A DNA stretch of 64,000 nt, taken from Ulota crispa (lineage: Eukaryota > Streptophyta > Bryopsida > Orthotrichales > Orthotrichaceae). The number at the start of each line of letters is the position of its first letter. Position 1 is the stretch's first letter. A model generated the notes under the pieces. That model worked only from the letters and a program-made list of their open reading frames with translations. It was not told the origin of the DNA and made no database searches. Position numbers and translations under genes: made by a program. The stretch covers positions 14,696,501 through 14,760,500 of the forward strand of contig OY987244.1 of assembly GCA_963920765.1 (NCBI GenBank), written 5' to 3'. This document shows positions 21,321-59,578 of the stretch, one piece after another.

Positions 21321-21351
<31 letters not shown>

Positions 21352-28722: not shown

Positions 28723-29040
28723 TACTTTTTAAATGTTTATTAGACGTTGCTACCAAGGAACGGACTTGAGCGGCATTTCGTCACATTACCACCCAGGCCG
28801 ACTGCCAACTCAGCATATGACAGACTCTTACGAACGTCTAACAAATGGAAGCGAGCCACATCAGCACTGAGCTTTCTTACTTGATGAGCAGGCTTTCTCA
28901 AGTATCATGAGCAAGACTTTGCTGCTGTTGCTGCTGCTGCTTAAACTGAGCATTTTTTGCAACGATCTGTACAAGATTTTGAGGAAGAGTTGCCTGAGGG
29001 AAGAGCAGTAGCAAAAGTTCATCTAATCCAGAGAGTAACT

Positions 29041-37173: not shown

Positions 37174-38435
37174 GGGTAGTCACACCTTCTCCAAGAATGA
37201 AATTTTCATGAAGGATGAGAAGTGGTGGAGTGAAAATAGGAGCCAATGGGAGCACTTCTTCACAAAAGAAGGTGTGACACTCTTTTTGTGGGTGGTGAAG
37301 AATAGAGAAGGGAGAAAGGTTAACCCTTAAAGGACCATGGCCTTTATTATGTCAAAAGACACTCAAAACTGTCACCTCTATGGCAAAGAGTTAAAAAGTT
37401 TGAAAATCAGGCATTTTGCATATCTAATCATAGGATCTTGTGCTAGACTACTATAAAAATATGTCATTCAAAACTCAAGAACTTTGACCGCACAAATTGG
37501 AAGATATATGCACTTAAAGTGTTAAAAACAACTTTTTTTGCACCTTGATTGACTAGATTTTTTAACTTTGAACATTTTTAACTTCAAATTTTTGCACCAC
37601 AGAGTTTGGAATTCTATTTTTGCATGGTGGTAAGTTGAGTTGGGAATCTTGGGAAAAAATTTCAAAAAAGAATACTTAATTTTCATTCTCTAAGAAAACA
37701 TTAGGTAGAAGAAGGTGTGAGATTGAACAAAAACTTAAATTGCTAATAACCCTGCAATGGAATTGAAACGCTATAATCCCAATGGCGAGATTGTTCTAGA
37801 AACCAAACTTCACCCTCTTCGACAATTTTTTTTGAAAAAATATTAAACTTGCATTCAAAAATGAAGTTTATAAGTTATTTTTTCAAGAAGATGCTTGAGT
37901 TGCCCAAAAAATAAGATTGTCCATAACTTTCTCATAACTAGTCCAAATGGAATGAATCAAAGCTTCAGATGTACAAAAAGATATAATATATAAGAAAAAA
38001 AAATTTAATTTTTTTTCAAGTTTTTATAAGAATTTTTTTTGCTGCCCCTAGTCCCCAAATTTGTGTTTATTTGGGCATAACTTTTGCTCCCTGGCATTAA
38101 TTGGAATAAAATATTATTCCCCAAAAGCTAATGTGTTTTTCTATCTTCAAAAAAAGTTTCAAAAAATCAAGACAAAATTTGAAGCTGTAGGTACCTGCCC
38201 AAAATCCTATTTGTCCCCCGTAGGGATAGTGGTCCTTTAGGGGTTAAAGTAGGAAGAACTAAAGTGAAAATATGAGGAGTAACTTCTAAAAATGGAAAAG
38301 TTACAATAAACAAAAATCAACAAAGGTGAAAACAAGACAAGAATGGGTAAAACTTTAACGCGTGGAGATTTCTCCACCCAATTCTGCTCCTTCGAAAGTG
38401 AAGATTGAGAATGGGATGGAGAAGGTGTGACTATC
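37174..38435. mobile_element. Inverted-repeat element split by a TTAA-family insertion
   Basis: The ends read TAGTCACACCTTCTCCA (about 37174) and its exact complement TGGAGAAGGTGTGACTA (about 38419-38435). The TTAA-flanked element at 37320-38247 lies wholly inside, so this host element was interrupted. A second internal AGAAGGTGTGAC word at about 37268 makes the original right boundary ambiguous. Confidence 0.55.
37320..38247. mobile_element. TTAA-flanked CCC-ended element, family T, copy 1
   Basis: TTAA (37320-37323), then CCCTTAAAGGACCATGG; the right end GGTCCTTTAGGGG is followed by TTAA (38244-38247). About 928 bp including both TTAAs. A TTAA duplication with CCY...GGG ends is the signature of the piggyBac superfamily. 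No coding capacity. The homologous copy 2 (41130-42054) lies in the opposite orientation; subterminal sequence such as ACTCAAAACTGTCACCTCTA matches closely. Confidence 0.8.
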
Positions 38436-40004
38436 TCTATTGTATCTCCATAAACCTCTAAAACCTCTAAAATGGACACACCTTGCAACCTCTACTAGAT
38501 AAGAGGATAATTATGAGTATGAGATTTCAAAGCTTGGTGCACTTCTCAACTAAACTTAATTTTTCCTTGCGTCCTTTTTGCAAGACAACAAATCTGATTT
38601 TTACAATGGTTTCGATATTATTTTGTTGTTGATTTCCTTAAAGGAATCCATGCTTGCACTTTTTTGCACCTCACTTACGTGGGCGATTATTATTTGATTT
38701 TTTTAATTAGAGAGCGCAGTTTTGCTTGAGAATAGTTCCGTTTTTTGGAGGAGAAGTGACCTCGAGAAAACTTTTGTTTCCCCTGAGATTTGAAACCCCT
38801 AACCACTAGACATATGAATTGGAACAAAGAGGAAATTTCAGAAGACCCCTTGGCAGGGTTATTTTTCTTGGCAAATTTTTGCCTAAATTTCAGCTGAAAT
38901 TGACACTAGGTACCAATACACTAAGAAATTTGGGAGGAAAAGTGGATGAACTTGCCAAATCCCACCTTCCGCAATCACCTGGTTCATCAAAATTTGGATG
39001 ACACTAGCTTACATTAGTAAACTTATTGTGTGAATAAGCACACGTCGTTCAATCTTTTCTATTTTAGCTGATTTTTCCTTACCTGCGGGAAGTTTGGAGA
39101 GCGGGTCGCTCTATTCTAACAAATAAATAAAAAAACTCTGCCCCTTGTGGGCAAAAAAAAGAAGGGTTATGAGTGACCCGCACCTACATAACATTGTTAA
39201 GTCGGTTTGATTCCTTCCCCAACTGTGCAGGAATATGCCTCCCCATATACTTGGGGGAGGTTTTAGTTGTAATTTCTCAAAGCTCATTGGTCTTGGGAGA
39301 GAGCTGACAAATGATATTAGCTGTGGGATCCTCATTTTTGGGGAGCAAAAGGGACCCCAGTGAAGGTTAACAATGTTATGTACGCTTCCCAAAAAAAGAA
39401 GGTTTTGTTGTTGGTCAAAGCTAAAGCACGGCAGTAGAAGTTCTGAAAAGGAGATTTGTGAAAAAGAGTGGGATTGTAAAAAGGGGTTATGGAAAGGAGC
39501 TGTGAAAAGGAGAGTTGTGAAAAAGTGGGTTTGTGAAAGGAGTTGTGACTTGTGGAAAGAAGATGTGAAAAGGAGGTTGTGAAGGAGGGAGGGGGACAAG
39601 GGCTGGGTTACATGGCATGCCGTTTTGTGGGGCCAGACAATCACTGTGGAAAATCTCAACTTTTTCACTACATTGAATAGGGGGCTTCAAACTTAAACTT
39701 TTTCAGGTGACTTATTCATGGATTCACGTCGATGAATTCACTAGTGAATTGCAAGGTGACCCACCTGTGGACTTCACTCTTAACGTGATTCACGTGAGGA
39801 ATGAACTCCAAAAACTCACCTTTGTGGCTTCTTGTGGCTCCTCTACTTGAATCCTCAAACTTCAAAATTTCTTTTGTAGAAATTTCCGCAAACTCACGGG
39901 TATCTCAGACATTGCGCGTGCGAGGGAAAGAAAGCAATTCACCAGTGAGCACAGATCCTATGAGGTGAGAAGCTTGAATGCCAAATTTTATGTTTGAACC
40001 CCCT
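38436..40004. other. Intergenic DNA with a purine-rich tandem region
   Basis: At about 39435-39590 the plus strand is a run of imperfect units of about 17-20 bp resembling TTGTGAAAAGGAG. The long minus-strand frame over it (39111-39668) is the pyrimidine complement of this repeat and shows no domain. A short CCTCCCC...GGGGGAGG palindrome sits near 39238-39262. No gene seen. Confidence 0.5.
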
Positions 40005-40310
40005 AATATTGCGCTTACATTGCCCCAGACTAATTTCTTGATATTTCACACTATATAAATATCTACTGCTGCTACATTAACTTTTAGTAATAATTACTAC
40101 AGACAACAAAATTTAAAGGGCCTAACAACAACAACAAAGCTGTCGAAATAAAAACTAATAGTGTCCAAGTTGTAAACCATGTGAAATCCACATTTCTAGA
40201 GAGTTGCATGTGCCTCCTAGTGGCCAAGTGATGGGTCATGAGGTAACTTTCTAAGGTAAAGTAACCCAATTGTCAAGGCAACCTAAATGCAATATTGCAT
40301 TTAGTGTAGT
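40005..40310. repeat. Dispersed repeat family D, copy C
   Basis: Homologous to 25440-25710 and 31091-31390 over about 270-300 bp, ending GCAATATTGCATTTAGTGTA. It carries CATTTCTAGAGAGTTGCATG and CATGAGGTAACTTTCTAAGG as in copy B. Confidence 0.65.
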
Positions 40311-41129
40311 CAAAAAATGTATCATTTTAAATATTTATCATTCAGAAATTGAATTTGAAAATTTTAAAGTCACATTTGAATTTGGGTGCCCTTAATTACA
40401 TATTTGGATTCAAATATCTTGATGTTGTATAGACCCACGGAGGAGGATATATTTGACCTTTTCCAACATAGAGGTAGATTATTACTTTTATCCTTATTTG
40501 TAAAAAATGAGATTTTTCACAGTGACTCTAGAGAACAGCATGCCATTGGCTAGATCTATTACACAGCATCCACAACATCCATGTGGGGCCAGGGTGGAAA
40601 ATCTTATTTCTTACACGTCAAATAATATGCAACAGTTTAAATTTTTACCTATCAAGAAATTGATTTTGTGAATTTTGATGTTACATTTGTACTCAGAGAT
40701 TCTAATATAGTTTAGAACCCTAGAGAAGGAAACAATGAAACAATGCCAAAATAGGAGATAAATTATTATTCAACCCTTGTTTGTAAAAAAATCTGTGATT
40801 ATCCACCTTGGCTAGCTCCACGTTGACGTAAGTGCAACAGATCAAATCCACTCCATCTAACCCTACCCAAGGTAGTAGCAATGTTCGGGAAGAACTAGCA
40901 TTTAGTGTATTGATAGTGGCTCCAAATTGCAAAAAAGTTGGTTAAATTTGAAATTGTCAGCAAAATACTTTGTCAAATTTCACAAAATAACAATCATAAT
41001 AATAATAGTAGATTGTATTAAAAATACAATTAATATCCGGTCCATTGTACACCCAGTTCACCCTTAAATGTTTAAGGCACCAAATTCTAGTGTCTAGGAA
41101 ACTTTAAAACCTTGCTAAAGGCAATGATT
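40311..41129. other. AT-rich intergenic DNA
   Basis: No gene or clear repeat recognised. Confidence 0.4.
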
Positions 41130-42054
41130 TTAACTCTTAAAGGATCATTATTCCTACGGGGACAAATGGGATTTTGGGCAGGTACCTACAGCCTCAACTT
41201 TTGTCTTGTTTTTTTTAACTTTTTTTGAAGACAAAAAAACACATTAGCTTTTGGGGAATACAATTTTTATTCTAATTGATGCCATGGAGCAAAAGTTATG
41301 CCCAAATAAGTACACATTTGGGGACTTCGGGCAGGAAAAAAAATTCTTATAAAAACTTGAAAAAAAATTTAAATTTTTTTTTCTTATAGATTATATCTTT
41401 TTGTACATCTGAAGCTTTGATTCATTCCATTTGGACTAGTTATGAGAAAGTTATGAACAATCTTGTTTTTTGGGCAATTCAAGCATCTTCTTGAAAAAAT
41501 AACTTGTAAACTTCATTTTTGAATGCAAGTTCAATATTTTTTTGAAAAAAATTGTGAAGAGGGTGAAGTTTGGTTTCTAGAACAACCTCACCATTGGGAT
41601 TATTGAGTTTCAATTCCATTGCAAGGTCATTAGCAATTTAAGTTTTTGTTCAATCTCGTACCTTCTTCTACCTAATGTTTTTTTTAAAGAATGTAAATTA
41701 TTTTTTTTGTTTTAATTTTTCCCAAGATTCTCAACTCAACTCCCCACAACACAAAAATAGAGTTCCGAACTCTATGGTGCAAAAATTTGAAGTTAAAAAA
41801 GCTCAAAGTTAAATAATCTAATCAGGCAAGGTGCAAAAAAAGTTGTTTATTACACTTTAAATGCAAATATCTTCCAATCTGTGAGGTCAAAGTTCTTAGG
41901 TTTTCTATGACACATTCTTATTGTAATCTAGTACAAGATCCTACGGTTAGATATGTAGAATGACCGATTTTCAAACTTTTTTACTTTTTGCCATAGAAGT
42001 GACAGTTTTGAGTATCTGTTGTCAAAATAAAAGTCATGATCCTTTAGGGGTTAA
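41130..42054. mobile_element. TTAA-flanked element, family T, copy 2
   Basis: TTAA (41130-41133) then CTCTTAAAGGATCATTATTC; the right end ATCCTTTAGGGG is followed by TTAA (42051-42054). 925 bp, the reverse-complement homologue of the 37320-38247 copy along its whole length, including the FTTTTTTTGAAA-like A/T runs and the ATTCCATTTGGACTAGTTAT word. Non-coding. Confidence 0.8.
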
Positions 42055-42350
42055 TGCTTTTAAATATAATTTTTGGAAAGTAGCAATATGAAGTTAGCTT
42101 CAATGTTCAATTCCTATGTCCTCCGTACTAATTTCCAATTACTTTTTATGGAAGATGCTTGCAAGCATGCTCGCTGCAAACTAAAAAGTATGTTGAAAAG
42201 CGTCACTCAAGAGCTGCCATTTTGGAAGAACTAACAGCAACGGTTTAAAATAAAGTCAAAGTTCTCCTCATGAAGGGCCTTTTATCATAAATTCATTACC
42301 TAATAAAATCTAAATGTGTTTTTACTCTAATTTCAATTAGAATGTCACCC

Positions 42351-44170
42351 TAAACCCCTAAGCGCTCAATTTACCATTTTTTTGGTCGCTATTCTTTTTT
42401 GTGGACTGCTTGGGATGCAAAAGAATATTTAAAAATACAATAAAAATGACTTTCAAACAGGAAAGCATGTCTACTTTCCAATCCAATTAGAATCATGTTA
42501 ATCCCAGTTAAAATCTATCAAGGAAAATTTTCCAACAACAAACATTTCAACATTTGCTAGTGTTATGAAATTTACTATTCCAAAAAACTAATGATGTTCT
42601 CTCCTTCAAAAAGATTTCCAATTTGAATTTCAAAAGAAAATGTCTATTTTTAACCAATCATACCAAGTTTTATATTCTATGAATATCAATTGTCATTTTT
42701 TTGAATATTAAATGGTAAATACTTCTAAACTCATCAAATAAGAGCCCAAACCCCATTTTTTAAAGTTTGCCATATGGATTATTACTAAACATCATAATAA
42801 TTGTTTTCAAAATTCATCAAAGTTAGAAGTTAGAACAATATCATTTTATAATGCATATATGTTTTGCCCTTATCCCCTTGGGCATTTAGGTGTGAAAGGA
42901 ACTAGAATCCATCCACCATTGAATTCTCTTTGTTCATGATTATTTTTGGCCAATAATTGGAGCTAAAATTTCCCTTTGTATTAAGTGGTAGCTATTTGAT
43001 TATTGCATTGCAAGCTCAATTGTGAAATTGTTGCAATGGATTTGGAAAGGGAGTCATTAGTTTGAAGTAACATCAATAAATATAAAATCATCATATGTAG
43101 TTGTTTCCCAATTTAGTACCCAAAAGAACCATTTTAACATAAAAAATTTGGGGCGACTACAAAAAAAAAGTACTTTTGTACTCATCCACATTCAATCACA
43201 ACTATCTTAACCCCTAAAGGCCCAAGGGGGTAAGGGCAAAATATAGATGTGTTATAAAATGGTACTTTTGTAACTTTGATGAAGTTTGTTTCAAAAGAGA
43301 AAATAAGAAGAACAATGTTTAGTAATTATCCATATGGTCAAACACTCAAAAAAAGTTTTGGATTTGGGAATTGATAAGCGTACCACACCTTCTTGACTAT
43401 CCAACCACACCCCGGGGTAAATTTTGGATTTCTACCATCAAAAAGTTGAATTTGAGAATTTGGAGTTTAGAATTAAAGTTAGAGACCTAGATTTTTTCTA
43501 GAACCATAAAAAACTGTTGTAATTGAACAGCACCCAATGAAAAAGCTTAGCTTGGGGCAAAAGTATAACTTTTAGTTTTTTTATAAAAAAGATAAGCTTT
43601 TTCATTGGGTGTTGTTCAATTAGAACTTTTTTTGTAATTCTAGACAAAATCACGGTCTCTAAGTCCAAATCTGAATTCCAAATTCTCAAATTCAACTTTT
43701 TGATGGTAGAAATCCAAAATTTACCTTGGGGTGTGGTGGGATAGTCAAGAAGGTGTGGTACGCATATCAACTCTCTTTGGATTTTTATGTAATGAATTTA
43801 GAAGCATTTACCATTTAATATTCACCAAAATTACAAATTTTACTCATACATTTCAAAAATTGGTATGATTGGTTAAAAATAGACATTCTATCCTACACTT
43901 CAAAAATGCAATCTTTTGAAAGGAGAGAACATCATTAGTTTCCCAAAATAGTAAATTTTACAACATTAGCAAATATTGAAGTGTTTGACTTTGAAAAATT
44001 CTCCTTGGTGGAGTTTAACTTGGATTGACATGATTCAAGTTAAGTTGGAAAGTAGTCTTGATTTTCTTAAACAAAAAAATATTTTTCTAAAGAAAAAAGA
44101 AATTGTCTTAGGCAATCCAAAAAAAACGAGCAACGTCCAAAAAATGATCAATTGGGCGATTAGGGGCTAA
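42351..44170. mobile_element. Pair of inverted family-T elements forming a 1.8-kb palindrome
   Basis: The left element runs 42351-42896 (TAAA, CCCCTAAGCGCTCAATT ... CCTTGGGCATTTAGG). The right element runs 43207-44170 (TTAA, CCCCTAAAGGCCCAAGG ... AATTGGGCGATTAGGGG, CTAA). They are inverted copies of each other separated by about 310 bp, and the outer ends also pair. The right element is longer because a 400-bp hairpin element (43371-43770) sits inside it. No coding capacity. Confidence 0.75.
43371..43770. mobile_element. Hairpin element, family P, nested in a family-T element
   Basis: Terminal repeats TTGATAAGCGTACCACACC and the mirrored GGTGTGGTACGCATATCAA, with arms continuing through CTTCTTGACTATCC. 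A 400-bp hairpin with a core around 43500-43635. Comparison with the other palindrome arm, which lacks it, shows it is an insertion. Related to the truncated copy at 35605-35905. Confidence 0.75.
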
Positions 44171-45097
44171 CCCCTAAAGGCCCAAGTGGTTGTTCAACAA
44201 CCACTTGAGAACTCAGGTAGAGTCATATGAAGTTAAATTTTATTGGATTTTCTCAAATTTTTACAAAAGGTGCAAATATGTCTCCTATAAGTGGAGATGT
44301 AATTTTTTCCCCAATCAGATTCTTGGTTCCAAAGTTATGTTACCCAAAAGAATTTGGGCAACTTGAGCATCTTCGGAGAATCTTATGGTAAAACTCTCAT
44401 TAACTTTTGAAATTTGGCAAGTATTTTACTAAAACAATATAATGTACAATTGTCAAAAAAAAAAATTGAAGTCTGACATCACGTTTAGAAGGGAGTCAAA
44501 CTTTGTTAACTATGTTTGGGTAGTTTCAAGAAAGAAAGAATCCTCTAACTTTAGGCTCTACTATCTTTCAATCTATCAATCCAAAACTCTTGAAACTTTA
44601 CTTCACAAATTCCAAATGATTGTCTCTAACTTTTCACGATTTGGATTTCAAACCAAAAACTTCCTCATTGCACAAGAAATCATGAAAAGAATGACTAATG
44701 AGTTGCCAATTCACTAAACCTCTTTGCATTACATGGTGATTTAGAGCAAGCTAGATTGTATTTTTGCTTCTGAAAATTTTCATGAGCAAACCTAACATCA
44801 TCTACTTATGAATGGTCAAAAAGCTCAAAAAATTTACTCTTGCAAGGCTCAAAGTTTGTTGACCTTGTTTTGCAAGAATGAAAACAAACTATTTTTCTCA
44901 CTTCAAACATTATAATCTTACAATCCACGCGGTCTAATGGGCTGAATTTTTTTGCACACATTAGCTTATCTATTTGACACACTTTTGTACAGTCGAATTG
45001 AGAAAAGAAAAAAAAATTCAAATTTGGGCAATGCACTAAAAGTTGGCAGTTTCTGAAGTTTTTTCTCAAAAAACACCCTTGGTTCTTTAGGGGTTAA
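44167..45097. mobile_element. TTAA-flanked element, family T, copy 3
   Basis: CTAA then CCCCTAAAGGCCCAAGTGG on the left; CCTTGGTTCTTTAGGGG followed by TTAA (45094-45097) on the right. 931 bp. It begins directly where the previous element ends. Just inside the left end is a small hairpin (AAGTGGTTG TTCAACAACCACTT-like, 44184-44206). It shares the TTGGGCAACTTGAGCATCTTC stretch with copies 1 and 2. Confidence 0.75.
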
Positions 45098-45202
45098 CAT
45101 CGGCAATACTTTTTAGAATATATTTGGCAGAACCATTTAGGAGTCTGGAAATTCAGACTCTACAGCTACAATAATTTGTTTTAACGTTTAATGATGATCT
45201 TA

Positions 45203-45523
45203 GAGCATCTCTAGTCCCCCACCAATTCGCACTGAGGGCATAACTTGGATCGATGACTGTTTCAAGCCATTTAGAATTCTCTCTAGACACTCAATTCTAG
45301 CCTGTCAAGGACTCAAGGCGAAGGCCCTTCAAAACATTATTCGGCTTTATCCCTTCATTCACCTTGATGATGGTCAAATGACTATATATGGAACATGTAT
45401 GAAGTGCAAGGGGCACCTTTTGAAGAGCAGGGTGGAAATCAAAAATTCTGAAGGCCATTCAACATAAATATAAACTTTGAAAGTGTTAGGTGTGTCGACT
45501 GGCTAGCAATAGTGGAGATGCTC
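45203..45523. mobile_element. PIF/Harbinger-like MITE with GAGCATCTC ends
   Basis: Starts GAGCATCTCTAGTCCCCC and ends GGAGATGCTC, 321 bp; flanked by TTA on the left and TGA on the right, an imperfect 3-bp duplication. The GAGCATCTC-type terminus is common in plant Tourist-like MITEs. Only about 12 bp of the ends pair well. Confidence 0.55.
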
Positions 45524-46932
45524 TGACAACTACAGTTCAGAATTTCCAAAAGGACTTCCTAAATGCCTTCTTAGAAACAAGAAAAAGTAACCTTGGGCGT
45601 GGAGGAGTTAAATATGGGAAATACCGGATGATAACCGATGAAGTCAAAACTTCTCCTCCAAACACTGGATGGCGGAGCACTAGAGCCCAAATTCTCTCCG
45701 AACTATGAGCTGTAGTAGGTGTACTGACATTCAAAGCATTCCATGAAACATATATCACTACAGTACCGATATTTCACAGCACAGTGAAAGCATTGAATCT
45801 AACTGGAACTTAACACTTCACAGTTGCTTCCATGCAGAAAGTTTCTAAAAAGCTCCCAAATTCCTCCAATCCCGGACTGCCTCGATTTGCCGAGGTCGGT
45901 GAGTAGGACCTGGAAGTCTGGAACGAGCGTTTCCTACTTTCCTACACTACCTTTCTAACAATAAATCTTTCCGACAATTCCCACTCTGACGTGGCCGGTT
46001 ACTATCACTGGAGTCAGCACGTGGCATCCTTATCCAGCTGGCAAATTTGCGGCTGCACGACCTACCCCCGAGGCGCTTTCAGGCTTGGCCACGTCGCCTC
46101 GGTTTCTCCGGCCACCGCGTTCTAGTGTCCTTGTCTCGGACGAGCTGCCGACCTATTACCGCGTCCGGTTTGTGCATATGGATGCTGATCAAGTCCTTTC
46201 ACTTCATTCCTGACAATCTGCTGCTCTCGCTCCCCCACTTGCTCCCCGAATCTCAGGTATGGCTCTACGGCCCAGCTTGTCTGAAGTGCCGTTTTCCCAG
46301 TTGTTTCACTTGTCTGCTTCATGTTGCTTGTGTTGGAAGTGTGGCACTGAAAGTCTGAAGAGCCTAAATCTAGTACCACGGGAAACACGGCAAAGTGTGC
46401 CGCACACGGTTCGTCCTGAAGTGCACAGTGCACAGTCTTCGATGCCGTGCTCTGTACCGGGCGTCCTCCCGTGCCAAGCGAGAGCTTGAACTTGAGCCTG
46501 AACTTGAGCTTGAGCTTGAGCTTGAGCTTGAATCCGACCTTGAGCTTGGTTAGCAGAATCAAAATCTCTACTTTCAATGCGAAATGACGAGATCTTATCA
46601 TTTCATCTCTTAGTACATGATGGTCTTCAGATACTGTGAATTTCTGTAGATACACAAGGGCAGTAGAAACCTCATATTACAGATTTACAGTAAGACCAGT
46701 ACAGACAATTTCTGGTTTTTTGCGCTTCGTGGATGTTACTGAGTGCCAAGTGTTTATAGTAGGAGATTTATTGCGATAGGTGGACGAGACAGAGGTCTTG
46801 TTTAAGGATGCTGTGAATGATGTCGATGTATTAGTTGACTGATTTTTCTCTGCGTTGTGGCTGCAGTGAGAGGAGCCAGAGAGCCGTAGATCAGGATCTA
46901 GTACAAAGTTTCAACCCAAGTTACTTGCCGCC
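45524..46932 (+). promoter_or_regulatory. Upstream region of the CASP-like gene
   Basis: GC content rises from about 45,880. The sequence probably holds the promoter and leader of the CASP-like gene; GTTGTGGCTGCAG just before 46866 looks like an acceptor, so a leader intron is possible. It contains a (GAGCTT)n hexamer repeat at 46483-46548. No other coding gene was recognised. Confidence 0.4.
46483..46548. repeat. (TTGAGC)n hexamer microsatellite
   Basis: About ten imperfect 6-bp units of TTGAGC/TTGAAC in the region upstream of the CASP-like gene. Its complement is translated as a Lys-Leu repeat in a minus-strand frame that I do not consider a gene. Confidence 0.85.
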
Positions 46933-48018
46933 ATGGAGACCACAGCACCACCATACAATGGCACCAAGTACAACAGCGGCGCTCCGGGAGTGCCTGTATA
47001 TGAGGCACCACGAAAGGCGCACCGTGCGCATCACTGCATAGATTTCATTCTGCGAGTGTTGACGGCGCTGGCGACGGCCGCAGCCATCGTCACCATTCTG
47101 AAGTCTAACCAGACTATACACTCGGGTACCGGGGCGGTCACTGCTCGTGCTCGCTGGCACGATTTCGGTGCTTTCAAGTACGTCCATTACAAACCAACTG
47201 CCGCTTAACTCTAGACTTAGACACTTTGCCTGGAATCTCTAAGCATCGAGCAACATAGACAGATTTTGACATATGTACTCCATATAAGGTTACTACGAAA
47301 TATGAGCTCAACTTCTGATACAGTAGGGCCTTTTTAAGATGAACCTTTATAAGCTAAAACGCTTAGCTAAGATGAAGAAGATGACGAAGATGACTGTCCT
47401 TGGCGGTTGGGAGCTACAAAAGATCTGTTTGGTTACAATGAATGCTTTCCTTATGCTGTCGGATACCTTCATCTTATCGAAGCACCACTGTAGGTAGGTT
47501 GATCTTGCACGATTCACTGGAGAGAAGACGGGGCGTTGGGTATGAAGAGAAGTATATTGCAGGGAGTTTTGACATGGTAACTAGTGAGAGACGGTAGTGT
47601 TTTAGTGACTGAATTAATGAACTTGGTTGTGTCGTCGTGCAGGTGGTTTTTGCTGGCGAATGCGATAGTGTGTGCATACGCCATCCTAGCAGCTTTGGCG
47701 TCGTTGATTGGCGTGTGCACTCGCAGAGGACCATTGAGCAACACTCCTACAGCCTTTCTGACATTCCTAGTAGACTTTGCGCTGGCGAGTGCGTTGATGT
47801 CAGCCGCTGCGTCGGCGACCACCATAGCCTGGATTGGTTACAAGGGGCAGAACAACGCACGATGGTATTCGCAGTGCGGCGTGGTGAAGACCTTTTGCCA
47901 CCGCGTGGCAGGAGCGCTCATCGCCTCGTTTGCAGGATGGGTGTTTTTGGCTCTCTCCACCATTCTTGCTGCAACAGCACTTCATGCTCTGCGACGTCGC
48001 ACTGCCTACAACTCTTAG
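46933..48018 (+). CDS. CASP-like four-transmembrane protein (CASPL, DUF588/MARVEL-like)
   Basis: Two exons, 46933-47177 and 47643-48018 (GT at 47178, AG at 47641-47642), encode 206 aa. CASP-like proteins are plant plasma-membrane proteins; the Casparian-strip members scaffold lignin polymerisation, while most CASPLs have unknown roles. Four hydrophobic segments are visible: about residues 35-56, 83-106, 121-147 and 168-195. The hallmark Arg in TM1 (R41, FILRVLT) and Asp in TM3 (D126, FLVDFAL) are both present. The second extracellular loop has the conserved tryptophan and two cysteines ([17 protein letters not shown]). Both termini are cytosolic-type, with a basic N-terminal stretch before TM1. 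The start has a good context (GCCATGG). The intron sits just before TM2 (GAF-K/WFLLAN), splitting the Lys codon. The first extracellular loop lacks a recognisable Casparian signature, so I call it CASPL, not CASP. Confidence 0.93.
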
Positions 48019-50327
48019 AGTGAATAAATATCTAGATTAAAGCAACTGAAGCAGCTGCTTGTGCATGTAGTCGCTTTGTTGTACATACGTTATGATTTTT
48101 GTCTTCAGCACTTAGTTCAGGATTTTTGATGACTGTACTTTCAATATATTTAATTCAACTCCCTACTTGACGTGTAAGAGACTGTTGCGTTTCACGAGGC
48201 TGACTTGCCATCATTTTTCTTGCAAAGCGTGCAAAACGGAGTCAGATGCGGTGGAAAAAATAAAATCTAGATATCTTCTTCATGTTTCGCAAAAGGATGC
48301 ATGATTGTAACGTGGAGCTTTCTATTGTATGGTACAATAATTTGGTTTGTTTTATTACATGCAAGACTTATCGAAAGTTGACTAGTATTCTGATGTGGAA
48401 ATGCAGCTCTGGGATATGTTCGAAGTTTTCTGTGATGAGCATGTACTTTCTCCTTGACTGTGAAATTACATTTGCAGCTTTTTAATTTTCCGGAGTTTTA
48501 AACATCTGGGTACTGTTGTAGGATAGTGTACAGCAACATCTGCACAGTGCACAAGGCTTATCAAACTGTTTTTACGGAAATCTTATCATCGAAGTAATTA
48601 TATTTAGACGTAAGGTGGAACCGTGGTGGCACCCATTGCCACCAACGCCCCCATACGGCCAAACCTAACCAATAGGGTGACTGCTATTTCCAGCATCAGC
48701 AAGGATCAATGCTTGGGATGCGTTCTTTTGTCCTTTTGAAGGGTGGGAGTGTGGGACCATATTAGTGGTGCCACATGTCCCAAAGTGAAGTAGGAAGTAA
48801 TGAGCTAAAAGTAGTTTGGATATTATCTCAATTGCATGAGTCTAGATATTGTCCATGGGTCCAAAACACTTTTTGACTCCCAAAATTCACTGTAATTTCA
48901 ATATTCCAAATAAAATTGTGAAGAATTTACAATCCAATATTTCTATCTTCCTACATGGGAAAAGTATTTGTTGCCTCAAACTCATTGTAATTTGCAGCAT
49001 AATTGCTCAAGTTATTGGGCATTGGTGCACCAAGTTTTGTACAGACATATAAAGTAACCACTAAGCAGTCCTTGAGACTGCGGAGCACCTAACAAATAGG
49101 AAAGCAAGAATGACCAACTTCTTTACATTCGCAATTAGACGGTCAATGAGATGCGAACACTTCCACTTCCCCTGCTGACTCAGCTCCCCCCGGTAGTACG
49201 GCAAATGCCAGCAACCTGCCAACTGGCCAGAGCTACAAACCCCCATTGTAGTTGGTAGAGCAGCCCCTTTGCCCTTGCATTTTTGTCCACAGTTATTATT
49301 GCCACCTAACGCTAATTGACGCCGTTTGACGCCTACTAACGCCGCGTGTGGCAACTTGAATTACAAAGACAGAAAACATTGACAACGAGTGACAAAGATT
49401 GCGCCACTACGTGACTACGTCTGTTGCTTTGTTTTTTCTCTCTTTATTTATTTTTGCTCTCGAAGGGAAATTTTGAGCCCTATAATAGGCCATTCCAAGG
49501 TCTCATAAAGATCTCAATATATGTACTTATTGCAACAAATAAATCACTAATCTCCTACTTCCACTCATCTTTTGAGTTCAATGTAAATGAAAGTTAAGTT
49601 GTTATGCCATTCTAATTGGACAAAGTTATAGGTACAAATGTACAATCAAACCATAAATTCTATCTTACTCTATTTGAATAAATGAGTGAAGTATTTGGGT
49701 AATGACTAGTGAGTACATTTACATATTTTATGAATGCAATGTCTTTTGTGTTGTTTTGGATTGTGCATGTGGCTCACGATGTGGCTAAGGTCTTTCATAC
49801 AAGATAACAATAAATATGAATGCTTTTCTTGTACTCATGCTAGCACACCTAACCCGCAAATAATAACTTGCTTTGTCAAATATTGAGGGGCTTTGGAGGG
49901 CTCAAATCTTTCTTAATGCTTTTTTTTTGTTTTGCTTCTTTTGAGGTGAGATGAATTCATTTTTCAAATGGGTAGAGGCCAGAGGGTTGTATGGCACGTT
50001 GGCCTATGCCCTATTGCAATGAAGATGATAAATGGATCCTTATTATGATCATCTTCAAAGTTTGTTGAAGGAAGAAGGTATAATAGCTCTAATTTAGCAA
50101 CATTGAGAGGAACTTTGTTGTTGGCTATGAGCAATTGAGAATTCTTTTGCAATCAATTGAAATTTTCCACTACACTTGTTTTGATTTAGTTATTGTGTAC
50201 GTAAGTCTTGTTTCTCAAAGATTGGCAAGATGGAATTGTGATGCATGGTTATTACTTTGAGGAAAAAGTAGATGCTTTAGAGTACTCATGTTTGATTTCC
50301 ATTCAAAAGACAACATCTACCTACACA
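48019..50327. other. Intergenic DNA downstream of the CASP-like gene
   Basis: 3' UTR of the CASP-like gene, with AATAAA at about 48024, then mixed-composition intergenic sequence. A small region at about 49300-49345 repeats the word GACGCC/AACGCC several times. No gene is recognised. Confidence 0.45.
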
Positions 50328-50605
50328 CATTACAAGAAAAAGGGCCATTTTTTGTTAAGGATTTTGACTACCAAAACACTAAAAGGACTAAGAGTTTTTG
50401 ACTAGACGGATATCACTCAAGTGGCTTAATTTATGACTACATGTAATCATAAATTAAATTATTTATGACCAAATTTAAAAAATTATGATTAAATAAAATT
50501 ATTTATGACTACATGTAGTCATAATGACTAGTCAAAAAGTCCTAGTCGTTTTAGTTTTTTTGTAGTCAAAATCCTTAGTCAAAAATGGCCCTTTTTCTTG
50601 TAGTG
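50328..50605. mobile_element. CACTA-type miniature element with perfect 3-bp TSD
   Basis: Starts CATTACAAGAAAAAGGGCCA and ends TGGCCCTTTTTCTTGTAGTG, the classic plant CACTA terminus CACTACAAGAAA with one changed base on the left. 278 bp, flanked by ACA on both sides. Internal arms contain GACTACATGTA-type palindromic words. Non-autonomous. Confidence 0.85.
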
Positions 50606-51000
50606 ACATCTTTGACAAATGCATTGTTGTGGATGGTGTTGATGAATATGTTGAGATTGTTGGGTCTGTTGTAACCAAGTGTTTAAAAAAATTACTAGTA
50701 TTGTGGTGGACATATTTGGTTTTAGAATTTTTTGAGACATTTCACACCAAATTATTTTGTACTAATTAGAAGTAAATGAGCTCTATGGTTTCTTTAGCAT
50801 GTTTGGTTTCATTGATTGTAGTCATTGGATATGGAAGAATTGTCTTGTCCAATGGCAAGGCCAATACCAAGACAAAGATTGTAGGTGAATTGGAAGGTAG
50901 AACAAATTTAATATGCCAAAATGCAAGAGAGTACAAGAAAATATATGAAGCCTGTTTTTGGTGTATTACAAGCATACTATGGAGAATCATTTGCAATCAT
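50606..51000. other. Intergenic DNA
   Basis: A short frame starting at 50776 begins with a hydrophobic stretch resembling a signal peptide (SLACLVSLIVVIGYG), but it runs on into the next MITE and has no family match. Not called as a gene. Confidence 0.4.
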
Positions 51001-51160
51001 ATAACATGTTATTCATTAAATTGGGAAAAAATGACTGATTTTGGGACTTTTGGATTTTATGTTTTTTAAAGAGTATTCATTGAATACTCTTTAAAGCACA
51101 TAAAATCCAAAAATCCCAAAATGCCACTTTTTCCAATTTAATGAAAAACACGTTCTATAA
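51001..51160. mobile_element. MITE family G, short relative (copy 3)
   Basis: A 160-bp hairpin: TTATTCATTAAATTGGGAAA on the left pairs with TTTTTCCAATTTAATGAAAA on the right, with a perfect inner palindrome around 51067-51095. The TTAAATTGGGAAAAA core resembles family G at 32791 and 36059. Confidence 0.65.
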
Positions 51161-53195
51161 AAATGTGCAATGATTCCACCATGAAAATTCTTTGGATGGC
51201 TCATATCATCAAATATAACATGATTATATGAGTTGAAAAACTAGAATTTGATTTGAATCTTAAACCTTCACTAGAATTGACATGTGCTACTAGTGCATGG
51301 CATGCACTTCATTGCTCTATGTCCTTCAAGCGGTTTGCAAGCCAAGTGGGTGAAATTCAACAACAAAGCAATCACTTACAACTTTGGCTTGACCTAACCC
51401 AATGCTTGTGACACATTACTGAAGGCAACATACAATAAAGGTATGCTTTTTCTTGAAAGATAATTTCACCAAAAATTTAGTGCTTCTCCAATCTCTTTTC
51501 TATGAAACCTTAAAAAAAAGTACAAAAGCCTTTTTAGAAATTTGTATATAAAATTAATCAAAATTTTTTTACTTCCTCCACTTCAAACCTATTACTTCCT
51601 ACCCTTAAAATTTTCATATATCTTAGTCTTTGCTTCCTCCTAATCTTTTTTTCCTCCACACATCTACAAAAGTCTATAAATAAAAAAAAAGTGTACAAAA
51701 ATTAAAAGTACCCCACCCTCTATCTTTTGTTTGTCCCACAACAAAGATGAAAAACACAAAAAACCCCTCCCCCCTGCTAACCCTTTCTATGTGTCTGGCC
51801 TTCCCCCATTTTCCCCCTTTGTCCTCTCTAGCTCTCCTCTCCTTATCCCCACTATCCTTTCCCTCCTCCACTAAGGCATTATTTTTGGGATTGCTAGGTC
51901 TTGGTTGTTGTCCACATTCTATTAGGTAATGAATGGAGGAATAACCCCACATTAGTTTCTATTTGTTAGAGTTGTTGTCTATTGGCTCTACTTTGTTAAA
52001 AAAAACAGGTTGCTCTCCACTCCCTCCTCCCTTGTTTTTGCACTTGGCCTTCCTCCTCTTCATTTCACTTTCACCAATTGCCTCCCAACGTCACCATCTC
52101 CCACCTTCCTTGACTATCACTCAATTTCAATGCATGCTACCTTTATCAACAACAACAAAAATAAAAATCATCAAATAGTGATCGGGATAGTGATGGAGAT
52201 TCTAATTTCAAATAATTAGTATGCCTCTCATGTGCTTTGAGTTGTCTCCCTTTTAGTTTTTAGTGACTTTCACCCTCCTTTTCCATTCTTTTTTCTCTTC
52301 CTTCCCCCTTTGAAATTCAATGTTTTTGATGACCAATAAATAAACACTAGATGCTTGATACCCAATTTTTTGCAATTTTTTTTTGCAAGAAATTGTGTCC
52401 TAATTGACATGTCTGAATTGACAAAATGTGTCCAAAATGACAAAAAAATTGTCAAATTGAACAATTTATGTAGATTTGGCCATGTTAATTTGGACATATT
52501 TTTGTCATTTTGGACAATTTTCCTTGTAGTGAAATTATTTAAACTTTTTGGTGTTAATACAAAATTTAGAATCTCTAATGATGGACATATGTATGATCCT
52601 TTATAATAGAGGCAAGAGATGCTTGCAAGTGAATTTTTCATGACAACAACAAACTTGCCATACTACCAAATTGTTTAATATAATGGTACTTTAGAGAATC
52701 AATAGTCTTCTACATAAATCCAATGCTACATCTGATTCAAACCTAAATACCAAATTTAATATCAAGTCAATCTTCAACCCAAATTTTTACTCTTCAGACT
52801 CTATGGAAACTCCTTGAAACTCTTCTCCCATTCTCTCAACTTGCAACTATTGTAGCAAACCTAAACCACATGGCAGGGCAAGAGACTTAGCATTTCTCCT
52901 TCCTATCCAGACTTGATGAGACCCTCGTCTACCATCAAGTAGCCCACTCTTCCAACCAAGCATTGCTAGCATGTGGTGGGGGGAGTAAATTCTTGCCCAA
53001 CCTTGCTAGCTAGAGTTGTAGGTCAAGAAAGCAGCCCAAGTGGAGATGGTCTTGGAGCATGCTCATGTTGTGCCCCTAAATGGGCGAGTAGTTGTTTGCA
53101 CCTACAAATTTATGTCTTAGATGTTTGTTTAATTCTGATCCTCATTCATTGATGTATGCAAAATTCATCAATTTTGTGACCCAATCTACACAATG
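51161..53195. other. Intergenic DNA with a pyrimidine-rich stretch
   Basis: From about 51,550 to 52,310 the plus strand is strongly C/T-rich (repeated TCCTCC, CCCCTCC, CTCTCC). No convincing protein is encoded: frames in both directions are low-complexity Pro/Leu/Ser. A CACTA-like remnant is at 52381-52531. No gene seen. Confidence 0.45.
52381..52531. mobile_element. CACTA-like miniature remnant
   Basis: The right end GACAATTTTCCTTGTAGTG is a good CACTA terminus. The left end is degraded (TTGCAAGAAATTGTGTCC). The arms contain repeated TGTCCAAATTGAC-like words. About 150 bp. Confidence 0.55.
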
Positions 53196-54125
53196 TTAAC
53201 CCTGTAGTGCCCATCAACCATTTGGGGGGGCACCTCAAATTTTCACTATACGGTTTGCAAAACACATTCAAGGACAAAATCTATGTTTCTAAAATCAAAT
53301 TGGACCGGATATATCAAAGTTATAAACTTTGGCAACATGAACATAAAAAAAAGTTTGATCTATTGGAAGGATTCCACATGAGGATTGTGAAAGGCTTGAT
53401 GATCCAAAAAAACTTGTTGTGCAAAAACATGAGACGCTCTAACTAATTAGTGACAATTGTGCAATTGAAATGTTTGATAGTGGTGAAATTTGTAGAGGCT
53501 ATTGCCCCATTCTAGGTTACTACACTTTTATAAAAAATTCAAAATTCAAGTCAAGCTGTGCATTTCACAGTATGATTTGTGGAATTGAGCATTGGAAGAA
53601 TACAAACATGGCCACACATATACGGTTGAATACAGCATGCATGGTGTTTCCACAAAATCTGATTGGTCACTATCATCTACATTAGGTGTCATTTGAGGTA
53701 CAAAGTCCCACATTTAGCATTGCAAACCTTTGGAGCCTAAGATTTCATGGAATACGCAATGTTGTAGCTGAAATACGCCACAAGTATAACTTCTAAATAA
53801 ATCATGCATCTTTTGTACAACTACTAGAGAGTTAGCACCGGATACTTTGGATGCAATATGTGGGCTTTGGGGCCATGTCACGGTTGTACTGAATTAGTAT
53901 TTCATTTGTTACACCCATATGAGATTCCCAGCTTCATATGTAAAACACACACAACTACCATATTTCTTTATGCCTTGTTTTGAAATTTGTTCCAGTAGGA
54001 GCACAAACTAAACCCTCAACTCTGTTACATTTGGTGTAATTGCAAATTAGATAGAACAAAGATGACAAGAACCACGGAGTACCAAAATCAACCCAAAAGT
54101 GATCAACTAGGCACTAAAGGGTTAA
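53196..54125. mobile_element. TTAA-flanked element, family T, copy 4
   Basis: TTAA (53196-53199), then CCCTGTAGTGCCCATC; the right end TAGGCACTAAAGGG is followed by TTAA (54122-54125). 930 bp, nearly the same length as copies 1-3. Interior AT-rich with short meaningless frames. Confidence 0.75.
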
Positions 54126-54998
54126 TATGTTTAGGGAAGGTCTTCAACAAAGTTTGTGTGTATGCGTGGCTCAATGCGTGAGTGGTTTGCTTGCACAGTT
54201 GATATGTCACCTGTAAACTTGAAGCTTAATTTGGAAGGTATGTTACCTTACGCTTTGACAACTTTAGGTAGAAGAGATTTCTACTCCAAACAATTTCTAT
54301 TTCACAAACTCAACCATAAGTTTTTTTGCATACATTTCAAACATGAATATGTACATTTTCAATGTTTTTGATCCTAAGAAAGCAAGGAAAAATAAATTAA
54401 ACATCAAAACTTGGAATTTATGCATCTTCACAAACATTAAAGTAAGGAATGTGATAAGTGAACCATATTTCTCCAACAAAAATAATGTAGGTATACCCAT
54501 TCCTGACCATGTACCCATGTGATGGTTATTTACATTCTAAAATGACCACCATTGGTACACAGTGACGGAATTGGGTACATGGTCAGTAATGGGTATGAGC
54601 TGGTTTCCATTGAGGGTATGGAGGGATCTAGGCATTGACCTCCAATATCTAACTCTACAAAAGTTGACTAACATTCTTGGACCAGGGTTTTTCTTTGGCA
54701 CTGTTCATGAACAGTAAGAAGCCAATGTGTTAGCACATGTATGGAGAATTTCCAGAGGAAGCAAATGCACGGGTCAAAATTGAATAAAGTAAAATAAAAT
54801 CTGGCTGCAAGAAGCCAAAAAAAAAACCTTGTCTTGGACCTTCCGGACCCTATACCATACATGGTTTTTTTGGTCATGGTTTTTTTTGGTATTGTGCATG
54901 AACAGTAAAACGCTATGTGTCATCTCAAATGAGGAGAAATTTTGGAAGGGCAGAAGTACATTTGCTAGTATGAAATCTCAAAAATTAGAATTTGGCGT
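54126..54998. other. Intergenic DNA with small inverted repeats
   Basis: TACCCATT...GACCATGTACCC at 54491-54516 is mirrored at 54571-54597 (GGGTACATGGTCAGTAATGGGTA), a hairpin of about 110 bp. TGTTCATGAACAGTAA (54705-54719) recurs directly near 54895. No gene seen. Confidence 0.5.
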
Positions 54999-55651
54999 TT
55001 AACCCCTCAACGCTTGAGGGGTGTTTATTTTGCCCCTCTGAATTTTGTTCAGGGATATCAAAAGTTTTTTGAAGATTTTTTGTGTGGTTATTATTATATC
55101 TAAATCGTTGTTGAAGTCTAGTTTCAACATCAAGAGTTTGATCTTGAAAATGAATTAACATGATTTGTCTATTCAAGGATTTGTGCAAGGGTGTCCATTG
55201 CAAATCTTCACTTTCTAGTGTTGAAGGCTCTTGGAAATGAGCCTCAAGTACACTAGAACTTGGAGAAAAAATTGCATTAAAATTTCATTTAAAAAAATTG
55301 TAGAATAGATTTTGAGAAGCCGTAAATTGATTGGGGTTATGCATGTTATACTTTACATACTCATATATTTTTGGTGCTCTCAATTTTAGGTTTGAGATGC
55401 AAAATGAGGATTGAAAGACTTCAAATCACTTTCACAATTTTAACACCCTCATGATCAAACATTATAGTCTTTCAATCCATAAGTGAAATAGTTGTGATTT
55501 CTTTTTGTATGCAATTTATAACATGTCTACTTTGAGTTTGTACAGTTACATTTCAAAGAAAATTGATAAAATTGATCAAAATGCTAGCATTTTGTTCACT
55601 TTCAAGCAAATTTTGAGATACCTTAAAATTCCAAGGGCGTTGAAGGGTTAA
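54999..55651. mobile_element. TTAA-flanked element, family T, short copy 5
   Basis: TTAA (54999-55002), CCCCTCAACGCTTGAGG; the right end GGGCGTTGAAGGG then TTAA (55648-55651). 653 bp. Reverse-complement homologue of 58281-58854 (shared word ATGATCAAACATTATAGTCT). Confidence 0.75.
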
Positions 55652-55960
55652 ACACATGAAATCAAACCATGATACCAGAGCTTGCTTTCAAAAATGTGCT
55701 TCTAGGAGAGTAACCTCATAAATTGTCCATCTAAGGGTTGAATTGAATTTTGGGGAGGTGAAACTTTTTATACTATTTTTCAATAATTTTTTCTTGAAAG
55801 ACAAGAAGAATTGACATCTAACTCAAGTTATTTCATATGTTTGGAGCTTTGTGAAATTAGGTATAACATTTTGAAGTGGAAAGGCCATAGGTCTCTAAAA
55901 CTGCCCACCTTCTCAAATGTACACTACTTGTACATTTTGAAAACCTATGAAAAAAAGCAT

Positions 55961-56845
55961 GTACAATGGGGGGACAAAAAGATTGGGAACACCTTGTTAG
56001 GCCATTCAAAGAATTGTGCCTAATATATAGAGTATAACTAATATTTTATTGTCTTGCATCATTGGTGTTGAATTCTTATGCAACCCCCATCAAGCATATC
56101 AAATTTCAGCTCCTAAAAATCAAAACTCTATTTTTGGTGAATTATTTTACACAAAATTCAATGTTTTACATGATAATTAATTAAAAAATATTGATGATGA
56201 ATTTTTGAGATTGGATTGCATGGGGATGTAAGAAACATCCATACACACATCTTTCCTACCAAAAAGCATCTCCAAAAATCTACAAAATTTCTTCTATAGA
56301 GGTTTTAATGTTGGGACAATAATGAACAAATTTTGTAAACTAGATATAATCATTCTTTAATAAGATTTTGGCAAATTAAACATATTGTCGTGCTCAAAGT
56401 TACAAACTCAATCATAATGGACAAGTCAAATTGCAAAATCTAATTACCATACAATTATATCTATTTTGCAAAATTTGGTAATTATCATCCCAACATTAAA
56501 ACCTCTATAGAAGAAATTTTGTAGATTTTTGGAGATGCTTGTTTGAAGGAAAGATGTGTGTATGGATGTTTCTTACAACCCCATGCGATCCAATCTCAAA
56601 AATTCATCATCAATATTTTTTAATTAATTATCATGTAAAACATTGAATTTTGTGTAAAATAAGTCTTCAAAAATAGAGTTTTGATTTTTAGGAGCTGAAA
56701 TTTGATATGCTTGATGGGGGTTGCATAAGAATTCAACACCAATGATGCAAGACAATAAAATATCAATTATACTCTATATGTTAGGCATAGTTCTTTGAAT
56801 GGCCTACCAAGGTGTTCCCAATCCTTTTGTCCCCCCACTATACAT
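55961..56845. mobile_element. Large foldback element, diverged family F
   Basis: An almost perfect palindrome: GGGGGGACAAAAAGATTGGG at 55968 pairs with the complement near 56815-56838, and arms of about 400 bp match closely through ATGCAACCCCCATCAAGC. The centre lies near 56390. Arm similarity to the element at 26501-27397 is visible in GATGAATTTTTGAGATT and CATCC-type words. High arm identity suggests a recent origin or gene conversion. Confidence 0.8.
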
Positions 56846-57380
56846 TACCCAAAAGAAAGAGTACATAAATCCCTCTCATGGCATCCATAAAAGTTGGTAT
56901 ACCAAAGAATATAATTGGCATTTTATCCTCAGATTTTTTTTATGTGAACCTTATGCAATCATGATCAAGCATACCAAATTTTAGTTACTAAAATCCAAAT
57001 CCTATTTTTGGTAAATTTTTTTGTGTCAAAATCATGGTTTTACAAGAAAATCGATTGAAAAACATTGGTGATGAATTTTTGAGATTTGGTTGCACGGATA
57101 TGTAGGAGACATCCACTTGCACATTTTAGTTTCAAACAAATTTCCAAAAAAATTCAAAAAAAACCCTATAGAGATTTTAATGTTAGGATTATTATGAACA
57201 AATTTAGTAAAATATATATTTCTTTATGGAAATTAGTTTTTGTTATTTGACTCATACATTGTCATTAAGTTTGTACCTTTAAACATGATGACATGTTTAT
57301 TTTGCCAAAAAGTAATTTATTTATAGTACAAACTTCTTTAAATCCTATAGGAGGGACTTGTGTACTCTTTCTTTAGGGTA
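56846..57380. repeat. Partial family-F arm
   Basis: About 56940-57310 reads like one arm of the foldback element (CATACCAAATTTTAGTTACT, TGATGAATTTTTGAGATTTG, GTAGGAGACATCCA) without the opposite arm. No gene. Confidence 0.55.
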
Positions 57381-58252
57381 TTGTACAGTACAAGTTAGTA
57401 TTGATAGGTAACTTGATTTGGCATTCCAAAGAAGTTTGTATAAAAAAATGTAAAAGTCAATTTAATCTCATATTTTTGGAATCTAATTCTCATGCAATCC
57501 CAATTGACCATACCAAATATGGGTTACTAAAAATCAAAATCCTATTTTTGGTACAAGTTTTTGAGTCAAAATTATGATTTTACAAGAAAGTTGGTCAAAA
57601 AACAATGGTGATGAATTTTTAAGATTTGATTGCTTGGATAGGTAGGAGACATCCAAACACGCATCTTTCCTTCTAACAAACATCTTCAAAAAGTTTAAAA
57701 TTTTGTCAATAGAGGTTAAAATGCTCCAGTGATCATGACCAAATTTAGTAAGATAAATATCTCCATTTTTTAATTAGCTTTTGGCAAAATAAACATATCA
57801 AGATGTTCAAAGGTATAGATATAATCATAATGTATGAGTCAAATAGCACAACTTAATCACCACAAAGAATTATCTATTTTACTAAATTTGGTCATGATTA
57901 CTCCCACATTTGAACCTCTATTGACAGAACTTTTAACTTTTTGAAGGTGTTTGTAGGAAGGAAAGATGCGTGTTTGGATGTCTCCTACCTATCCAAGCAA
58001 TCAAATCTTAAAAATTCATCACCATTGTTTTTTGACCAACTTTCTTGTAAAATCATAATTTTGACTCAAAAACTCGTACCAAAAATAGGATTTTGATTTT
58101 TAGTAACCCATATTTGGTATGGTCAATTGGGATTGCATGAGAATTAGATTCCAAAAATATGAGATTAAATTGACTTTTACATTTTTTTATACAAACTTCT
58201 TTGGAATGCCAAAACAAGTTCTACTTTTCAATACTAATTGGTACTGTATAGC
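57381..58252. mobile_element. Large foldback element, family F, copy 2
   Basis: Starts TTGTACAGTACAAGTTAGTA and ends with the approximate complement (TACTAATTGGTACTGTA). About 870 bp, with arms of about 400 bp matching almost base for base (ATGCAATCCCAATTGACC mirrored at 58120). Homologous to 26501-27397. Confidence 0.8.
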
Positions 58253-58280
58253 AAGGGAACATTTGAGAAGATGGGTGGTT

Positions 58281-58854
58281 TTAACCCCTAAATGCTTGAG
58301 GCCTTTTTTGGCCTTCTAGGAATTTTCTCTAGCTTGAACAAAAAGTCAAGATTTTAATAAGTTATCTAAAGTTTTTTAAAATTTTAGCCATGCAAATTCA
58401 AATTAGACATGTTAGAGATCACATAGGAAAAGAAAACACAATAATGTCACTTATGGATTGAAAGATTATAATGTTTGGTCATGAGGGTGTTAAAATTGCA
58501 AATATAACTTGTAGTCTTCCAATCCTCTTTTCACATGTTGGATCTAAAAAGTTGGTCATTAAAAAAATATAAGTTTAAAGAAGACAATATATGCAACTCT
58601 AATCACTTTACGGCTTTTCAAAATCTCTTCTAATTTTTTTTAAATGAATTTCTAGTGTAAAATTTTCTCCAAGATCTAGTGTATTCGAGGCTCTTTTCTA
58701 AGAGCTCTCAACACTACAGAACATCAAGATCCTTGTACAAAATCTTGAATAGAAAAGTCATAATCAATTATTTTCAAAATCAGATTTTTGATGCTAAAAC
58801 TAGACTTCAAGAAGAACATTGCAAAACTATAAACTACTAAAAATAGCAACTTAA
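58281..58854. mobile_element. Family T, short copy 6 (one end clear)
   Basis: TTAA (58281-58284) then CCCCTAAATGCTTGAGGCC. The interior is the reverse-complement homologue of the 54999-55651 element (GGATTGAAAGATTATAATGT). The right end is eroded and abuts the TTAA of the next element. Confidence 0.6.
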
Positions 58855-59578
58855 CCCCTAATGGACCAAAGTCCCCTTTGGGGACATTTTGGGATTTTGG
58901 GCATGTACTTATGGCTAAACTACTTTGTGTAATTTTTTGAAACTTTCATGGAAGATGGGGAATTCAAAGATTTGGGTGGGCATCTAATTTTTTCCTCATT
59001 TTGACTTTTATTGAAGAAGTTAAAAATGAATTTTTGAGAATTTTAGTTTGGCGGGCAATCCAATTTTTTTTTAAAAATTTGTGTTTTTTTAAAATAAAAA
59101 TTCAAAGTTAATTCTGTAGACTTACATATATGTGGGAAGCTTTTAATTATTCAATTCTAATTGATGAGATGAAAGTTATGAGAAGTTTTAGTTTGCGGGT
59201 AGGTGTGGAGAATCTCAAAACAATGCCTACACGCAAACTAAAACTTCTCATAACCTTTATCTCATCAATTAGAATTGAATGATTCAAAACTTCCCACATA
59301 TAAATAAGTCTAAAGAACTAACCTTGAATTTTTATTTAAAAAAAACGCAATTTTTAAAGAAATTTTTGGATTGCCCGCCAAACTAAAATTCTCATAAATT
59401 CATTTTTAACTTCTTCAATAAAAGTCAGAATGAGGAAAAAATTAAATGCCCACAAAGATCTTTGAATTCCCCATCTCCCATAAAAATCTCAAAAAACCAC
59501 GCAAAGTAGCTTAGCCATAAGTACGTACCCAAAATCCCATTTGTTCCCAAAAAGGGGACTTGGTCCTTTAGGGGTCAA
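58851..59578. mobile_element. TTAA-flanked foldback element, family T, copy 7
   Basis: TTAA then CCCCTAATGGACCAAAGTCC; right end GGGGACTTGGTCCTTTAGGGG followed by TCAA (59575-59578). 728 bp and nearly fully palindromic: arms of about 350 bp mirror each other, including AAACTAAAACTTCTCATAAC near the centre at about 59210. It sits about 385 bp upstream of the plastid S17 start. Confidence 0.8.

Follow-up and report, generated by a model that had tools for sequence, protein, structure and literature searches.

What kind of enzyme mobilised the small elements crowded into part of this Ulota crispa sequence is the question raised by a 64,000-nucleotide stretch of contig OY987244.1 (positions 14,696,501 to 14,760,500; hereafter, the window). 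When element ends were re-read and aligned, the region 37320-59645 (22 kb) was found to hold at least nine small non-coding elements with common ends, [TTAA]CCC(C/T)TAAAGG(C/A)CCA. These are quite probably old, non-autonomous DNA transposons of the piggyBac type, both foldback and resembling miniature inverted-repeat transposable elements (MITEs), and their mover would be at least one piggyBac-type transposase made elsewhere in the genome, now or formerly. This explanation best accounts for the shared ends, the TTAA preference, the sharp boundary between ends and flanks, the tetranucleotide common to two abutting elements, the nesting of one element in another, the lack of long open reading frames (ORFs), and the matching of left and right ends. 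Five or six families are present, with likeness mainly confined to the ends; they are best classed as new representatives of a known kind of element, with no claim that they are unpublished; the elements look like real yet ordinary passengers once mobilised by a piggyBac-type enzyme.

The count comprises nine elements, A1, A2, X, Y, C, D, E1, E2 and F, with 18 ends. They are given below with their terminal inverted repeats (TIRs), together with the insert found in Y:

37320 to 38247, plus strand: A1, 928 bp, TTAA at both ends, TIR CCC(T/C)TAAAGGACCA.
41130 to 42054, minus strand: A2, 925 bp, an inverted copy of A1, TTAA at both ends, GGATCA in both TIRs.
42351 to 42896, plus strand: X (family B), 546 bp, ends TAAA and TTCA instead of TTAA, an inverted relative of Y.
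43207 to 44170, minus strand: Y (family B), 964 bp with its 406-bp foldback insert counted in, an exact TTAA on the left, CTAA in common with C on the right.
43368 to 43773, no strand: the foldback insert in Y, missing from X, TA-flanked, with ends GCGTACCACACCTTCTTGAC; a separate, TA-type MITE.
44167 to 45097, plus strand: C, 931 bp, CTAA (44167-44170) common with the end of Y.
53196 to 54125, plus strand: D, 930 bp, TTAA at both ends, a divergent TIR CCCT(G/T)TAGTGCC matched at both ends.
54999 to 55651, minus strand: E1, 653 bp, flanked on both sides by TTAA, its two ends carrying the TIR CCC(C/T)TCAACGC.
58281 to 59645, plus strand: E2, an inverted relative of E1 split by F, left TTAA exact, right degenerate (GCTA), TIR CCCCTAAATGC at both ends.
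58851 to 59578, no strand: F, a 728-bp foldback nested in E2, 353-nt arms 87% complementary, ends TTAA and TTGA.

In a logo of the 18 ends, C occupies positions 1 and 3 in every case and position 2 in 16, A is found at position 7 in all 18, and G at position 10 in 17; conservation extends to about position 14, and the eight bases flanking the ends on the outside have no clear pattern. The sequence-only reading that first drew attention to the family had placed TTAA on both sides of the elements. An exact count in the window bore this out for four of the nine (A1, A2, D and E1) and for 12 of the 18 ends, the remaining six ends differing. The outermost T is nevertheless kept at 16 of the 18 (p about 3e-6 against 34.5%), which favours a TTAA target. 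Y and C adjoin with one common tetranucleotide, CTAA, which enters these 18-end figures twice; a single tetranucleotide common to two abutting elements suggests that it belongs to neither of them alone.

The window was scanned for sites agreeing with TTAACCCCTAAAGG, the motif of the sequence-only reading, at no fewer than 11 of its 14 positions, and for facing pairs of such sites 200-2500 bp apart, with 30 first-order Markov windows as the control. The scan gave 18 sites, where the simulated windows had 3-10, and 14 facing pairs, where they had 0-2. Of these sites, 15 coincide with ends of the nine elements and three, at 41057, 52557, and 57338, do not; the 14 pairs, among which seven of the nine elements are found, include cross-pairings. 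D stays under the threshold at either end, and E2 at its right end; D entered the set from the list in the sequence-only reading and E2 from its kinship to E1.

The proposed family of TTAA-flanked CCC...GGG elements is largely upheld, and re-reading agreed with the ends that had been described at 37320/38247, 41130/42054, 44167/45097, 53196/54125, 54999/55651, and 58851/59578. Some boundaries were wrong, however. A single 1820-bp element at 42351-44170 was rejected, as this interval holds two inverted relatives with separate ends, X (42351-42896) and Y (43207-44170). Likewise, what had been taken for a weak element at 58281 is where E2 begins; E2 runs to 59645, with F interrupting its body.

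At looser thresholds, no significant excess was seen in the window: 44 sites matched the motif with up to three mismatches, against 34.25 +/- 6.11 (a number reached by 7 of 100 shuffles), and 38 hits to the end matrix scored at least 6, against 26-46 in 10 simulated windows. Single weak ends are therefore not to be trusted. Two candidates stand outside the count, the first corresponding to a weak element that had been proposed at 62275 and that holds up at one of its ends only:

62265 to 62632, plus strand: candidate G, good at 62632 (score 20.8) and poor at its other end (8.8).
45594 to 45611, minus strand: a lone TIR-like right end, TTAACTCCTCCACGCCCA, score 17.8, with no clear left partner.

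Left and right ends are matched within elements. With 15 TIR positions compared per element, left and right agree at 112 of 135 in total, whereas pairing ends at random among the nine gives 93.9 on average (p 0.0001); two sets restricted to one element per family gave p 0.0085 and 0.018, and two larger subsets p 0.0028 and 0.0002. A1, for instance, has GGACCA at both ends and A2 GGATCA, while E1 has CAACGC at both ends and E2 AAATGC. Such matching could reflect transposase variants, conversion between ends, or foldback formation. No subterminal motif common to all families was found, counts of 8- to 10-mers giving only TIR and A+T-rich words.

A1 and A2 are 89% identical over 932 columns in inverted orientation, with a Kimura two-parameter distance (K2P) of 0.112; the corresponding distances are 0.336 between X and Y (insert left out), 0.379 between E1 and E2 (F left out), and 0.148 between the two arms of F, which are related to the right end of A1. 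Between families, the interiors of A, B, C, D, and E have no clear overall similarity, with short or weak matches present: C and E have a 24-25 bp word in common (92-96% alike, E about 1e-5), with a z value of 7.4 for the alignment of their right parts and of 5.5 for that of the left part of C with the right part of A1 (40 shuffles each, 120 end pairs tried). Remote kinship of some families is thus possible. The four elements that had been noted as near 930 bp long do have lengths of 928, 925, 931, and 930 bp; two of them are copies of one family (A), and C and D have no clear interior kinship to each other or to A. This near-equality of lengths is unexplained and may be a coincidence. Together, the elements occupy 32% of 37320-59645. 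The eight non-nested elements all start within 21 kb, an arrangement that uniform placement of starts outside 10-25 kb would produce in about 1% of draws, a figure computed after the cluster had been seen.

The description of the elements as non-coding was borne out, the longest stop-free stretch per element ranging from 51 to 99 codons among the nine. The Rfam search returned 0 matches at the gathering threshold. An exact TIR scan of viral contigs gave two stretches with one end copy each; the two places are alike by eye and coding-looking, and the matches are read as chance.

Assignment to piggyBac rests on the ends and their target. The combination of TTAA with CCY/GGG ends had been named as the signature of this superfamily, in agreement with PMC2872659 and PMC10813416, which give a TTAA target and CC(C/T)...GG ends as its hallmark (statements drawn from all papers cited here except PMC9033089 refer to the available part of their text). 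The TIRs of the superfamily are about 12-19 bp long (PMC2872659), and the 18 ends in the window accord with the CC(C/T) start taken from the same paper (C at positions 1, 2, and 3 in 18, 16, and 18 of them) and are conserved to about position 14. To extend the comparison beyond the first bases, 15 piggyBac-type coral TIRs from eleven families (two of the sequences being identical), as given in PMC2872659, were scored on the window end matrix without its first three positions. Ten of the 15 fell in the top tenth of their own shuffles, as opposed to 11.5% of the controls, which were 400 CCC-starting 14-mers drawn from the 1143 that the window holds, and 12 of these coral TIRs had a mean matrix score of -0.53, compared to -12.38 for shuffles. 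These figures support the view that the ends resemble published piggyBac ends beyond CCC.

The coral elements, consisting of CMITEs and their autonomous relatives AmiPB1-6 (PMC2872659), are like those described here in being non-coding, in their TTAA flanks, in TIRs that start with CCC and measure about 14 bp, and in comprising several families with variant TIRs. The best single likeness noted is between the right TIR of AmiPB2, reverse-complemented (CCCTTTATGGACC), and the left end of A1 (CCCTTAAAGGACC), which are alike at 11 of 13 positions. In contrast to the coral MITEs, which are about 100 bp long with a conserved interior, the elements here measure 546-931 bp without inserts, have largely unrelated interiors, and reside in a plant-like host.

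Several observations weigh against a piggyBac origin. When positions 4-5 of the matrix were also dropped, only 7 of the 15 coral TIRs remained in the top tenth, against 9.4% of 160 CCC(C/T)T controls. All 15 come from one coral paper (PMC2872659), two being identical and several alike, so that the comparison supports kinship and does not give independent proof. A Pfam scan of ten ORFs in the window (intergenic or within elements), six of them overlapping C, D, E1, and Y, gave no match at the cut-off, and neither a transposase nor an autonomous partner, expected to carry a DDE_Tnp_1_7 (PF13843) domain, was seen in the window. Six of the 18 end tetranucleotides differ from TTAA. There is no clean empty site: the target of F in E2 was read against E1, and was unreadable because E1 and E2 are too diverged. 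Distant kinship of C to E and to A1, which is possible, would weaken those counts that treat families as independent. Finally, the tetranucleotide common to Y and C, taken alone, fits a duplicated TTAA as well as a duplicated TA around elements with A...T ends. The empty-site check put forward in the sequence-only reading is weaker than it was made out to be, since one TTAA in such a site would leave the same ambiguity; the TA reading is formally possible.

Read in that way, as T[TA]ACCCC...GGGGT[TA]A, the TTAA around CCCC/GGGG would belong to Tc1/mariner-type MITEs with a 2-bp TA duplication and TIRs starting ACCCC..., the outer T and A being a mere target preference. Stowaway/Tc1-mariner MITEs are like the present elements in their TIRs, small size, and non-coding nature, TA-type foldback elements are present in the same window, the tetranucleotide common to Y and C also fits a TA duplication, and a strong target preference could account for the kept outer T. 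However, the target of these MITEs is TA, and the outermost T is retained here as well as the inner bases are, at the frequency given above, even though on this reading it would lie outside both element and duplication. Moreover, moss Tc1-like elements end in CAGT...ACTG (PMC4054914), and the likeness of the ends to piggyBac ends also speaks against Tc1/mariner. On balance, an origin of this type is considered unlikely. Sola3 targets TTAA, and no transposase is known for the elements here, leaving room for a Sola3-type or other undescribed TTAA-targeting superfamily as the mover. Sola is also a listed plant superfamily, with Sola1 in a moss (PMC9033089), but the CCC...GGG ends and the further TIR positions are piggyBac-like (PMC2872659), making such a mover improbable as well.

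Two other superfamilies were rejected as the source of the elements. Kolobok, which also has a TTAA target and duplicates it (PMC9587614), has the end rule 5'-RR...YY-3', the opposite of the CC...GG ends in the window, where C stands at position 1 in all ends and at position 2 in all but two; Kolobok-type MITEs are therefore very improbable. PIF/Harbinger (Tourist-like) MITEs are common in plants, and the Tourist target-site duplication is TAA/TTA (PMC10004981). Under such a 3-bp duplication, however, the ends would be unequal (ACCCC on one side, CCCC on the other) and the kept fourth base would go unexplained, whereas a symmetric 4-bp TTAA surrounds equal CCCC ends here; this origin is hardly credible.

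Under the preferred piggyBac reading, the enzyme would bind the 14-15 bp end CCC(C/T)TAAAGG(C/A)CCA, excise the element at the CCC/GGG boundary in a cut-and-paste manner, and insert it into a TTAA target that would be precisely duplicated. Related enzymes with slightly differing end preferences might then explain the matched ends. A broader, more tentative suggestion, which we regard as somewhat doubtful, is that this green-plant lineage has its own long-resident, diversified set of piggyBac transposases. The MITE families would then be largely non-homologous inside and of various ages (K2P 0.11 to 0.38 between copies), their end variants having altered jointly on the left and right, whether through each family tracking a separate transposase variant or through conversion that kept the two ends alike.

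The superfamily is known chiefly from animals, and the sequence-only reading had regarded piggyBac as unusual in land plants, a view that holds in part. The word is indeed absent from a review of land-plant elements (PMC9033089), but PiggyBac is one of seven angiosperm MITE superfamilies in PMC10004981, is named among plant class II superfamilies in PMC10794571, and has 1230 copies in the repeat table of the C-fern genome (PMC6890710). In PMC10619864, 'piggybacking' is just an everyday word of English. The PiggyBac class in such plant MITE and repeat annotation (PMC10004981, PMC6890710) represents the same assignment as that made here, compared without end sequences. In the available part of PMC12550479, MITEs are sorted into five superfamilies that do not include piggyBac, and pipelines of this kind have no class for TTAA/CCC elements; as a result, a plant piggyBac component could be omitted or filed under another superfamily. 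If a transposase exists in the same genome, it would constitute, with these elements, a native plant piggyBac system whose natural variety of ends could serve to examine co-change between transposase and ends.

Other repeats in the window are also largely palindromic, and foldback elements are dense in its A+T-rich parts. Long palindromic elements of about 870-900 bp, with arms 87-90% alike, lie at 26500-27398 and 57384-58248, with relatives at 55959-56845 and 56879-57317; three of the four ends of the first two are TA-CAGTAC, which suggests foldback MITEs of one Tc1/mariner-type family. Three further palindromes (8509-8807, 28404-28724, and 61454-61756), each measuring about 300-320 bp, are copies of one MITE-like element whose ends approximate GGGAAAATTTCATGGATACC, and 35610-35869 is about 80% alike to the foldback inserted in Y. 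A BLAST self-comparison revealed more palindromic stretches at 63099-63450, 63382-63892, 50328-50605, 50999-51158, 8122-8501, and 5816-5953.

A G+C-rich island (53-63%) spans 10001-24000, compared to mostly 24-40% G+C elsewhere in the window, and is perhaps one long gene; PNWELVSDVLSS, near 18.4 kb, presumably recalls the SANT region of plant EAF1. Two of eight scanned proteins gave matches: a CASP domain at 47584-48015, and a plastid-type ribosomal protein S17 at 59807-60412, for which uS17c plastid and chloroplastic S17 chains were among the four best matches. Both are in keeping with a green-plant host. The nested E2/F pair ends at 59645, 318 bp before the likely ATG (59963) of this S17 gene, and therefore may lie within its promoter.

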